Under the pieces are notes generated by a model. The model was not told where the DNA came from, did no database searches, and was given only the letters and a program-made list of their open reading frames with translations. A DNA stretch of 61,143 bases from a bacterium. Its GTDB lineage: Bacteria > Sumerlaeota > Sumerlaeia > SLMS01 > JAHLLQ01. A program made the translations under genes and the position numbers. Below are positions 37,501 through 55,719 of this stretch, piece after piece (position 1 is the stretch's first letter; every line of letters starts with the position of its first letter). The stretch spans positions 1 through 61,143 of the forward strand of contig JAHLLQ010000012.1 of assembly GCA_020444065.1 (NCBI GenBank), in the 5' to 3' direction.

Positions 37501-37983
37501 ATGCATCCGCTTATTCGCGAAGTCGAAGCCTCGTACTTGAAGACCGATCGGCCGTATTTCCGGCCCGGTGACACGGTGCGCGTTCACGTACGCATCGTGG
37601 AAGGAAACAAGGAGCGCGTGCAGCCCTTCGAAGGCCTGGTGATCTCGATCAAGGGCTCCGGCCTGCGGGAGACGTTCACCGTGCGCCGCATGTCGTTCAA
37701 CGTCGGCATGGAGCGCATCTTCCAGTTGCACAGCCCGCGCATCGAGCGCATCGAGGTCATCCGTCGCGGTGAAACACGTCGCGCCAAGCTGTACTACCTG
37801 CGCGCACGCCGTGGACGGAAGGCGCGTCTGACCGAGCGCCGCGTTTCGGCCGCCAAGCTGGCCGCCGAGGCGTCGGTTTCTCAGAAGGCCACGCTGGACC
37901 ACGCAGCCCTCGCCGAGCAACAGCCCGCCGCCCCCGAGGCGCCGCAGGCCAATGCGCCGGAAGGGGCCGAGAGCACCGAGTAA
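37501..37983 (+). CDS. rplS: 50S ribosomal protein L19 with an Ala/Glu-rich tail
   Basis: L19 lies at the 30S-50S interface. The core (about 1-115) is canonical: [40 protein letters not shown], then [20 protein letters not shown] and [16 protein letters not shown] further 45 residues rich in Ala, Glu, Pro and Gln extend beyond the family end. ATG 37501 follows GAGGAG. The usual rpsP-rimM-trmD partners are not here, so rplS stands alone between its own leader and a strong terminator. Family is certain. Confidence 0.97.
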
Positions 37984-38012: not shown

Positions 38013-38051
38013 CGCCCCGGAGCCGGTTTGGCTTCGGGGCGTTTCTTGTTT
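38013..38051 (+). terminator. Intrinsic terminator after rplS
   Basis: CGCCCCGGAGCC (38013-38024) pairs with GGCTTCGGGGCG (38030-38041), with one G-T pair and a five-base loop, followed by TTTCTTGTTT. Confidence 0.88.
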
Positions 38052-44267: not shown

Positions 44268-45398
44268 CTATTCCCGATCGTCGATCAACCCCCTGTAACG
44301 AACGAATACGGCCTCAATCTGCGCCTGTATCCTCACCATTTGCGGCGCCGTTATGGAATAGAGCCTCGCGGCGGAGGTCTTCTTCTGCACGATTGAAAGA
44401 AGCCCCTGGTTGCTCCTCCATGCGGCGAGTTCCTGCTCCAGCAGTTGACGCCTCGTCCCGTCTTGGGCGTTGGGGATTCGGACTTCTTCGAGAATCGCAA
44501 TCTGAGCCTCAGACGCCGCATCCATCCAATCACGACCGGTCGCATCCTCGGGGACTTCGATATCAATGCCTTGCTCGCGAGCGGCCCGGACGAGTGCGAC
44601 TGGGTCGAATATCGAAGGATCATACGCCTTGTCGAATCGGATTCCCTGCAATGGCTCCCAGTTCTCGTGCAGGACTTGATACACGCCAGCACGCAATTGG
44701 GGATCATCCGTCTCTTCAAGAATGTATTCGGCAGTATCGAGTCCCCAGTCCAGAATCGTAGAGCCGCAGAGCTTCTCGATGAGGGAAGAGAAAGGGCGAC
44801 ACCTGGCGCTGCGGAACAACACATGAAGTTCAGCCAGCGTGTCCTCTCGATTTCCATCCTGGAATTCCGCGAGGACGCGAGCTTGCTGAGCCTTCGCCGA
44901 CCCTTGAATGGCAATCTGGAATTGGACGAGATCGCTCTGGGACTGGTGTGCGGCGACATTTGGCCGGTCTGCAGTCCAGACTCCCAGAAGGTAGTCCGGT
45001 TGCTGGATCGTCTCGACGAAGCAAAGCCGCGCGGGTTCCCAGCACTCCAACGTGCTGGCGGGAATGGCGGCCCCAAGATCGGTATTCAGAGCGGCGCCCA
45101 GTTCTTCCATGCTCTCCACAGCAGCCTGCCGATTCATGGCTTCCCATTGCATCCGGAACTTGTCGACGCACGCCAGGGTTTCTTCCGAGAAGCTCGATGG
45201 GACGAGTGCGGAGTCCGGGACATTGGCAGGCTCATTCATCCAGCGCCCGAAGGACGTCTGCTGAGATTGCGACAGATTGGCCAAAGCTCGGGACTGGGCA
45301 TACATGAGGAGCCCTGTGACCAGGCCAATGACGAGCAGAATGATCCCAACGGGAATCAGTATCCCGAGCAAAATCAGCTTTCGGCGGCTTCTCGGCAT
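44268..45398 (-). CDS. Membrane-anchored protein of unknown function
   Basis: I do not recognise this 376-residue protein. It has a basic start (MPRSRRK), one strong membrane helix (about 8-33), and an extracytoplasmic remainder that is mainly helical, with many Gln, Ala and Glu residues (QSRALANLSQSQQTSFGRWM, EAMNRQAAVESMEELGAAL, RRQLLEQELAAWRSNQGLL). No enzyme motif is visible; four or five scattered Cys do not form a clear pattern. It starts at ATG 45398, upstream of the prepilin gene on the same strand, with a 147-base gap holding a weak hairpin and a palindrome. A pilus-related role is possible only by position. It is probably a lineage-specific protein. Confidence 0.7.
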   Translation of the reverse strand: MPRSRRKLILLGILIPVGIILLVIGLVTGLLMYAQSRALANLSQSQQTSFGRWMNEPANVPDSALVPSSFSEETLACVDKFRMQWEAMNRQAAVESMEELGAALNTDLGAAIPASTLECWEPARLCFVETIQQPDYLLGVWTADRPNVAAHQSQSDLVQFQIAIQGSAKAQQARVLAEFQDGNREDTLAELHVLFRSARCRPFSSLIEKLCGSTILDWGLDTAEYILEETDDPQLRAGVYQVLHENWEPLQGIRFDKAYDPSIFDPVALVRAAREQGIDIEVPEDATGRDWMDAASEAQIAILEEVRIPNAQDGTRRQLLEQELAAWRSNQGLLSIVQKKTSAARLYSITAPQMVRIQAQIEAVFVRYRGLIDDRE

Positions 45399-45458
45399 TT
45401 CGCTCCCTCACGAGTGAATGTTTGTAGCATCCCTACTGAGAAGCGCCAAAGGTATTCA

Positions 45459-45487
45459 TTGAGAGGTGCAACCTTTTTTGCCATGAT
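45459..45487 (+). promoter_or_regulatory. Sigma-70-type promoter for the nusA leader
   Basis: TTGAGA (45459-45464, five of six consensus bases) and CATGAT (45482-45487, four of six) lie 17 bases apart. A start near 45494 would give a leader of about 145 bases, which includes the hairpins at 45515 and 45561. Confidence 0.45.
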
Positions 45488-45514
45488 GGCGCTGATTTTG
45501 CTTGAATCGGCGGC

Positions 45515-45531
45515 GAGGGTGACTCACCCTC
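45515..45531 (+). promoter_or_regulatory. Palindromic GAGGGTGA-C-TCACCCTC in the nusA leader
   Basis: Two perfect 8-base arms around a single base lie 30 bases ahead of the leader terminator. It could be a protein-binding site or part of an alternative fold; as RNA the one-base loop would have to open. Confidence 0.35.
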
Positions 45532-45560
45532 CCAATCACTCTTCTGCGAAGGTTTCGGAA

Positions 45561-45591
45561 GGTGGGTCGCGTTGTCGACCCGCCTTTTTTT
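45561..45591 (+). terminator. Intrinsic terminator inside the nusA leader (candidate attenuator)
   Basis: GGTGGGTCG (45561-45569) and CGACCCGCC (45576-45584) form a 9-bp stem with one G-T pair, followed by seven T. It ends 46 bases before the nusA start. No plus-strand gene lies upstream that it could serve, so it should act on nusA's own transcript. Confidence 0.7.
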
Positions 45592-45637
45592 GTCGATTGC
45601 CGGGGATGGAGAGGAACTCGAAAGGGAGCACACGATC

Positions 45638-47176
45638 GTGGCAAAGAAGAAGAAACAAGAAATTCGGCGGCTCAATGTGAAGCCGCTCATCAAGCAGATC
45701 TCGAAGGAAAAGGAGCTGGAACCGGACATCATCAAGTTCGCCATTGAATCGGCGATTCTGTCCGCCGCCAGCAAGCGCGCCAACACGTTCTCCGATCCCC
45801 GCCCTGATCTGGACATCGAGTCCGGCGACATGCGCATCTGGGTGAAGAAGAAAGTTGTGGTGAGCGTTGACGATCCGCGACACGAAATCGATATTCTCTC
45901 CGCCAAGGGCCTCAACCCCGCCAATATGCTGGGCGACGAAGTCGAAGTCGAGATCGACCCGGAAGAATTCGGTCGTATCGCCGCGCAGTCCGTCCGCCAG
46001 GGCATCCTGCAGCGTCTGCGTGACGCAGAGCGCGATCGCATTTACAACGACTACAAGGACAAGATCGGTCAGGTCGTCACCGGTATCGTGCAGCGCTACG
46101 AGCGCCGCGATGGCATCGTTGCACTCGGCAAAGTCGAATGCCTCCTTCCATCCCAGGAAATCCCGATGGGGGTTCGCTATCGTTACGGCGATCGCATCCG
46201 CTGTCTGATCATCGACGTGCGCCGCACGCCGAAAGGCCCGCAGGTCATTCTGTCGCGTACGCGTTCGGAACTCGTGAAGCAGCTCTTCGCGATGGAAGTC
46301 CCGGAAATCAGCGACGGCACCGTGAAGATCGTGGAAATCGCCCGTGAGCCTGGCGTGCGTACGAAGATCGCCGTCAACAGCATGGACCCGAACGTCGATC
46401 CCGTCGGTGCGTGCGTTGGCATGAAGGGCTCGCGCGTTCAGATGATCGTGCGCGAACTGGACAACGAGAAGGTCGACATTGTGCCGTACTCGCCGATCTC
46501 CGAAACGTTTATCAGTTCCGCTCTGAATCCGGCCCGTATCATCAGCATCAAGCTGAACGAAGTCGAGCGACGCGCGGAAGTCGTCGTCGATAGCGAGACG
46601 CTGGCAAAGGCAATCGGCAAGCGCGGCCAGAACGCGAAGCTGGCGGCAAAGCTGACCGGCTGGAAGATCGATATCTCTGGCCAGGAAGACGAAGCCGAAC
46701 TGGCTCGCCTGGAAAGCATTTCTCTCCAGTACCTCGAGGACTTCCTGTCGCAGATCGAAGGCCTCTCGCAGTTCAGCCGCGAAGCCTTGGCACGCAGCGA
46801 ATCTTACAACTCGGTCGAGAAACTGGCCGAGATCGAGCCACAGCAGCTCGTCAGCTTCACCGGCGACGATCTGGAGCTTGCCGAAGAAATCGTCGAAGGC
46901 GCCCGGGAGTACCTGGATGGCCTCGAAGAAATGACGGCCGACTCGGAAGCGGGCCTCAGCGAAGAGCTGAAGAAGCGCCTGAACGAGGTCAGCACCCTGG
47001 CCGATCGACTGGCGGGCAAAGAAGTCATCTCGGTCACGCCGGATGATGTCAGCGAACCACCGGCAGTAGGCGCCGATTCTGAAGAGGCACCTGCAGAAGA
47101 GGCCTCAGCGGAGGAAGCTCCAGCGGAAGAAGCTGCTGCTGAAGAGCCTTCCGAAGAACCTAAGACCGAAGGGTAA
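45638..47176 (+). CDS. nusA: Transcription termination/antitermination factor NusA
   Basis: NusA binds RNA polymerase and nascent RNA, promoting pausing and hairpin termination. The 512-residue product has the N-terminal polymerase-binding domain, an S1 domain (about 130-200: GQVVTGIVQRYERRDGIVAL), and two KH domains with GMKGSRVQMI and GKRGQNAKLAAKL. A helix-hairpin-helix-like region and about 45 residues of Ala/Glu repeats form the end. I start it at GTG 45638, nine bases after GGAG, giving AKKKKQEIRRLN; the upstream frame from 45572 crosses the leader terminator and is not coding. rimP and infB, its usual partners, are absent here. A terminator follows it. Confidence 0.96.
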   Translation: MAKKKKQEIRRLNVKPLIKQISKEKELEPDIIKFAIESAILSAASKRANTFSDPRPDLDIESGDMRIWVKKKVVVSVDDPRHEIDILSAKGLNPANMLGDEVEVEIDPEEFGRIAAQSVRQGILQRLRDAERDRIYNDYKDKIGQVVTGIVQRYERRDGIVALGKVECLLPSQEIPMGVRYRYGDRIRCLIIDVRRTPKGPQVILSRTRSELVKQLFAMEVPEISDGTVKIVEIAREPGVRTKIAVNSMDPNVDPVGACVGMKGSRVQMIVRELDNEKVDIVPYSPISETFISSALNPARIISIKLNEVERRAEVVVDSETLAKAIGKRGQNAKLAAKLTGWKIDISGQEDEAELARLESISLQYLEDFLSQIEGLSQFSREALARSESYNSVEKLAEIEPQQLVSFTGDDLELAEEIVEGAREYLDGLEEMTADSEAGLSEELKKRLNEVSTLADRLAGKEVISVTPDDVSEPPAVGADSEEAPAEEASAEEAPAEEAAAEEPSEEPKTEG

Positions 47177-55523: not shown

Positions 55524-55557
55524 GCCCCCGGGATTCAATCCCGGGGGCTTTTCTGTT
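55524..55557 (+). terminator. Intrinsic terminator after the second prepilin
   Basis: GCCCCCGGGA (55524-55533) and TCCCGGGGGC (55539-55548) form a perfect 10-bp stem with a five-base loop, followed by TTTTCTGTT. Confidence 0.9.
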
Positions 55558-55642: not shown

Positions 55643-55719
55643 CGGGGTGTGGCGCAGTTGGCTAGCGCACCTGCTTTGGGAGCAGGGGGTCGCGAGTTCG
55701 AGTCTCGCCACCCCGACCA
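55643..55719 (+). tRNA. tRNA-Pro (anticodon UGG) with encoded CCA
   Basis: The acceptor CGGGGTG pairs with CACCCCG, and a D-arm (GCGC with GCGC), an anticodon arm CCTGC-TTTGGGA-GCAGG with TGG in place, and a T-arm GCGAG-TTCGAGT-CTCGC follow in order. Discriminator A and CCA end it at 55719. It is isolated from other tRNA genes and stands where the gene-poor region begins. Confidence 0.95.

Follow-up and report, generated by a model that had tools for sequence, protein, structure and literature searches.

Does nusA of a Sumerlaeota bacterium carry, in the leader of its own mRNA, a terminator through which NusA limits its own synthesis? The question is raised by a hairpin that lies directly before nusA in the 61,143-nucleotide stretch of DNA analysed here, hereafter the window. 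An earlier note on this DNA had suggested NusA autoregulation through this hairpin, possibly with the participation of a nearby palindrome. We therefore analyzed the hairpin, its conservation and its surroundings.

The hairpin and its setting

In the window, nusA occupies positions 45638-47176 of the plus strand and encodes a protein of 512 aa from a GTG start (TIGR01953, 382 bits, 2e-114; Pfam NusA_N, S1 and KH_5). A ribosome-binding-site-like sequence, AAAGGGAG, was recognized by eye at 45621-45628 on the same strand. Further upstream, folding, shuffles and our own scorer identified a terminator hairpin at 45561-45584 (plus strand). Its 9-bp stem consists of a left arm, GGTGGGTCG (45561-45569), and a right arm, CGACCCGCC (45576-45584), with one U-G among the nine pairs, and encloses the 6-base loop CGTTGT (45570-45575). 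The stem is followed by seven T (45585-45591, plus strand), where a short leader RNA would be expected to end. The GTG at 45638 lies 46 bases after the T run and 53 bases after the stem; the stem, T run and spacing claimed in the earlier note were thus present, at 45561-45591.

The hairpin with its tail folded at -17.1 kcal/mol (range for the hairpin, -15.9 to -17.1 kcal/mol), and none of 200 dinucleotide shuffles was equally stable. When both strands were scored with our own terminator scorer, it ranked second among the nine sites of the window that scored at least 5. It was absent from the list of a simple terminator scan of the window, perhaps because A-T pairs lengthen the stem into the T run. 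The top-scoring terminator-like hairpin of the window (55524-55548, score 42.0) precedes a tRNA (55643-55716) by approximately 95 bases. Another good terminator, at 38013-38041, follows an ORF that was taken by eye for ribosomal protein L19 (approximately 37501-37983) and precedes a MatE transporter gene; it is probably an ordinary 3' terminator.

The upstream gene (44268-45398), which has no functional assignment and gave no match in NCBIfam and Pfam searches, is on the minus strand in the ORF list, in agreement with the opposite orientation described earlier. Because this gene is divergent, the plus-strand hairpin is not its terminator. On the 3' side of nusA lie an ORF with a sub-cut-off Pfam TPR match and a glutamine amidotransferase gene. 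A repeat element was ruled out, as the hairpin occurs only once in its own 5.2-Mb genome when up to 3 mismatches are allowed. A known Rfam leader was also ruled out. At the gathering score, the window yielded only the tRNA and 18 relative loci yielded only a 6S RNA, near nusA in G034 (L017:2503-2703, minus strand). At E <=10, the region 45400-45660 gave four weak matches, none at the gathering score; the best was 15.3 bits on the minus strand (ylbH leader, which needs 50) and 13.2 bits on the plus strand (L20 leader, which needs 58.7).

Conservation of the hairpin and its stem in Sumerlaeota

We analyzed a set of 40 Sumerlaeota genomes, in which a NusA match was found in 35 and readable upstream sequence in 34. 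Left out of the 34 were the genomes without a NusA match (G004, G012, G016, G033 and G039), one in which the contig ends inside nusA (G005), and the second NusA of G036 (contig C102, L059). The earlier note held that absence of the hairpin from relatives would count against its proposal; a terminator-like hairpin with a hairpin-plus-T score of at least 9 was present upstream of nusA in 32 of the 34 genomes, a score reached by 0.41% of 3400 shuffles. When each leader was compared with its own shuffles, 30/34 scored above all 100, a result that supersedes a smaller count (27/29 loci above all of 15 shuffles each). In G008 and G011, the two that fell short, G/C hairpins are present but the T runs are poor; G007 reached the score despite a poor T run.

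The upstream regions of infB served as a real-sequence control. Of 29 Sumerlaeota loci tried, 11 were without a start found and one had too little upstream sequence; one of the remaining 17 regions passed, with three that contained no candidate hairpin scored as misses. In the window's own genome, a G-rich hairpin-like stretch in the infB leader scored -24.6 and was not counted, as it appeared promoter-like by eye. A different terminator hairpin, GAGTCCGCC...GGCGGATTC followed by T5, was observed between nusA and infB in G032 (L164), 51 bases before infB.

In an alignment of four genomes of one family, the window hairpin shared its position with those of its relatives, and two short sequences were kept, GCTTG in the -35 region and GGAGAG close to the start. 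Hairpin-to-nusA distances in relatives are approximate, because start codons were picked by eye from in-frame candidates. Among 32 loci, stronger stems tended to have shorter T runs (Spearman 0.44, p 0.012), a correlation that carries little weight, as the loci come from genomes that are related to one another and the window runs contrary to it.

Outside the window's order, the common stem is GTGGGC...GCCC(A/G)C, with tails such as TTTTTGTTTTG. The consensus AGTGGGC...GCCCrCTTTT fits 9 of the 13 families having a readable leader. When 41 whole genomes were searched with the pattern AGTGGGCN{3,12}GCCCRCTTTT, 19 distinct sites were found in 18 genomes (two palindromic double rows were merged). 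Eighteen of these sites lie directly before nusA, and the nineteenth lies inside another ORF in G023. The backwards pattern, used as a control, gave no site in the 41 genomes. Exact matches were present in 18/40 Sumerlaeota genomes. The other 22 comprise the whole of the window's order (12 genomes, G000-G011), four genomes lacking a NusA match, and six whose hairpins are variants (G013, G022, G027, G028, G035 and G038). Because the alignment misplaces the left arms of the window's order, stem pairs were tabulated from the stem base. The window stem is GGGt...aCCC; the other members of its order depart further from the signature, with stems such as CGGGCCGC...GCGGCCCG.

RimP_N and the RimP C-terminal domain were each undetected in 39/40 Sumerlaeota genomes (10/14 control genomes were positive in each search), and no rimP was found when the window's own genome was searched. 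Thus, 30S maturation may do without RimP in Sumerlaeota. The exception was one contig of G036. In this genome, the second NusA, which is on a small contig (L059, C102:1850-3950), is preceded by rimP, and no GGGC...GCCC hairpin was seen by eye in its upstream stretch; this NusA is probably foreign or an assembly contamination. In eight genomes (G014, G017, G019, G020, G021, G023, G026 and G032), infB and nusA are approximately 1.5 kb apart or less. In G029 and G015 the two genes share a contig but are separated by some 300-500 kb, and in the window's genome they are on different contigs; these counts apply to contigs that are long enough, many genomes being fragmented. The hairpin has stayed with nusA despite the undetected rimP and the separation of infB.

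Among 80 named loci from other phyla, 26 have GGGC...GCCC followed by TTTT in the 1600 bases that precede nusA, mostly at 480-680 bases from the gene; this strict motif was absent from the other 54. In 10/10 loci picked from the 26, the ORF between the motif and nusA was RimP.

Predicted promoter, palindrome and the proposed action of the leader

A putative -35 box of the nusA promoter, TTGAAT (45502-45507, plus strand, within GCTTGAAT), was recognized from CTTG conservation and the family alignment. In 28/32 loci, CTTG is found at a distance of 25-75 bases before the hairpin, mostly at -50 to -64 and at -60 in the window, compared with about 5.5/34 in shuffled 50-base stretches. The window's -35 box aligned with GCTTG of three same-family genomes. 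Because the candidate -10 box 17 bases after it (CACCCT, 45525-45530) is a poor match, we infer only provisionally that transcription starts near 45537. From this start, the leader would extend approximately 24 nt before the hairpin and measure approximately 55 nt with hairpin and T run included, and would therefore leave little room for a ligand-binding domain.

The palindrome, GAGGGTGACTCACCCTC, has 17 bases (45515-45531, assigned to neither strand) and lies 29 bases before the stem. With a start near 45537 it falls in the promoter; it is probably inside the spacer and -10 region and outside the RNA. When its own 70-base stretch was shuffled 50 times, no equally good palindrome arose. Perfect palindromes with 8-bp arms and loops of 0-3 occurred at 8 places in the window, and ten shuffled versions of it had 2-9. 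Elsewhere in its own genome there was one similar place only, with 3 mismatches. At this site in the phylum no enrichment was detected (arms of at least 7 in 2/34 loci, 1.2 expected). Two same-family genomes, G001 and G003, have 4-bp arms only at this position, and the third, G002, has a different repeat with 5-bp arms. The G002 repeat (L007), CGTGA...TCACG, lies approximately 45 bases before the nusA hairpin of that genome, in the place of the window palindrome, and shares with it the core GTGA.TCAC; it is at chance level (14/50 shuffles equally good). The suggested participation of the palindrome thus found no support from conservation, either across the 34 loci or within the family.

Judging from sequence and from analogy with other bacteria, we consider it likely, with a probability of roughly 0.7, that the hairpin acts as an attenuator in the nusA mRNA leader, in which premature termination stimulated by NusA gives negative feedback. 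RNA polymerase would start shortly upstream, near 45537, make the hairpin and T run within approximately 55 nt, and either stop near 45591 or continue into the gene. Polymerase-bound NusA would favor stopping. Plentiful NusA would then result in fewer completed nusA mRNAs, and scarce NusA in more readthrough. No antiterminator appears to be conserved in nusA leaders. NusA feedback is favored because the predicted leader is short and because precedents exist in Bacillus subtilis and Streptococcus agalactiae. The autoregulation proposed in the earlier note thus gains support from the conservation in 32/34 genomes, the rimP-leader-like stem of the wider phylum, the persistence of the hairpin with nusA and these precedents. 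Several points stand against it: the weak -10 box, the altered stem signature in the window, the 22/40 Sumerlaeota genomes lacking an exact match to the pattern, the poor T runs of G008, G011 and G007, and the 54/80 loci of other phyla without the strict motif. Further, NusA-dependent terminators of B. subtilis are described as having distal interruptions of the U-tract (PMC8060035), whereas the strong stem and unbroken T run of the window might terminate transcription without help.

These last two features would also suit attenuation of nusA in which another factor (for example NusG, growth rate or the supply of nucleotides) determines how efficiently transcription terminates, or a leader that acts as a fixed throttle. 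In B. subtilis, NusG is reported to stimulate many intrinsic terminators as well (PMC8060035). However, the leader keeps to nusA out of the old rimP-nusA-infB set, and precedents are for NusA feedback; control by another factor or by none is therefore rather unlikely.

We give considerably less credence to a terminator/antiterminator switch in which the right half of the palindrome (45522-45528) pairs with the left arm of the terminator, so that the palindrome controls termination. If transcription started near 45494, the alternative fold (-38.3 kcal/mol) would be close to the terminator fold (-39.5 kcal/mol), and in a transcript ending at 45584 the alternative pairing is the predicted best fold (-37.2). 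A promoter-like pair, TTGAGA/CATGAT, is present at 45459-45487, but the promoter scan gave 4 sites in 12 kb compared with 3.3 expected. The palindrome, moreover, is downstream of the conserved -35 box, in addition to being at chance level in the window and unenriched in the phylum. Slightly less credible still is the notion that the hairpin serves only to shield nusA from stray transcription arriving from upstream, or that it marks the end of an independent small RNA. Although some relatives have a co-directional upstream gene, the upstream ORFs face either way among relatives keeping the hairpin (both by rough ORF calls), a promoter-like box precedes the hairpin in 28/32 loci, and insulation needs no conservation of the stem sequence.

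The history of the locus bears on which protein the leader senses. With rimP undetected, infB partly separated and the hairpin still before nusA, Sumerlaeota represent a natural experiment that points to NusA as the sensor. We tentatively suggest, as a possibility that we hold to be rather less than even, that an ancient NusA sensor persists in this leader, having been kept with nusA through the loss of rimP and the break-up of the operon, and that the window's order exchanged the widespread GTGGGC stem for another but retained the place of the hairpin and the promoter. If so, either NusA reads the strength of the terminator and not the sequence of the stem, or the preference of NusA changed along with the stem. 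The swapped stem in this order would thus provide a comparison for asking why the stem sequence is otherwise so conserved.

Comparison with known leaders

Among the matches listed in the open-licence literature, no paper addressed a nusA leader in Sumerlaeota. Feedback of this type is already known in other bacteria. The closest description is that of the rimP-leader by Naville and Gautheret (2010; PMC2965389). This terminator, whose stem carries GGGc(...)gCCC, precedes rimP-nusA-infB, and rimP stands first in the list of attenuated genes given there. Whether RimP or NusA is the sensor was left open in that account, with NusA favored (PMC2965389), and it is on this question that Sumerlaeota bear.

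Like the rimP-leader, the window has a short terminator heading the nusA transcription unit, with a G-rich 5' arm, a C-rich 3' arm and a T run, and without a conserved antiterminator. The hairpin and U run thus lie in the 5' leader, provided that the leader is transcribed as predicted, and the 46 bases to the first gene are inside the 4-130 nt of the rimP-leader. Unlike the rimP-leader, which precedes the rimP-nusA-infB operon, the window hairpin lies directly before nusA, with rimP undetected and infB elsewhere, and its stem is GGGt...aCCC instead of GGGc...gCCC.

In B. subtilis, NusA autoregulation via termination in the leader is reported as experimental (review, PMC12288461). There, as in the window, an intrinsic terminator lies in the leader upstream of nusA; the dependence on NusA is experimental in B. 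subtilis, whereas in the window it is a deduction. In S. agalactiae, RNA-seq of the rimP-nusA 5'UTR is reported to place termination 31 nt past the start site, and NusA feedback was proposed (PMC4448216). The first gene is rimP in S. agalactiae and nusA in the window, and the window leader is predicted from sequence. In both, however, the terminator lies very near the start site, which in the window is the predicted one, and NusA feedback is proposed.
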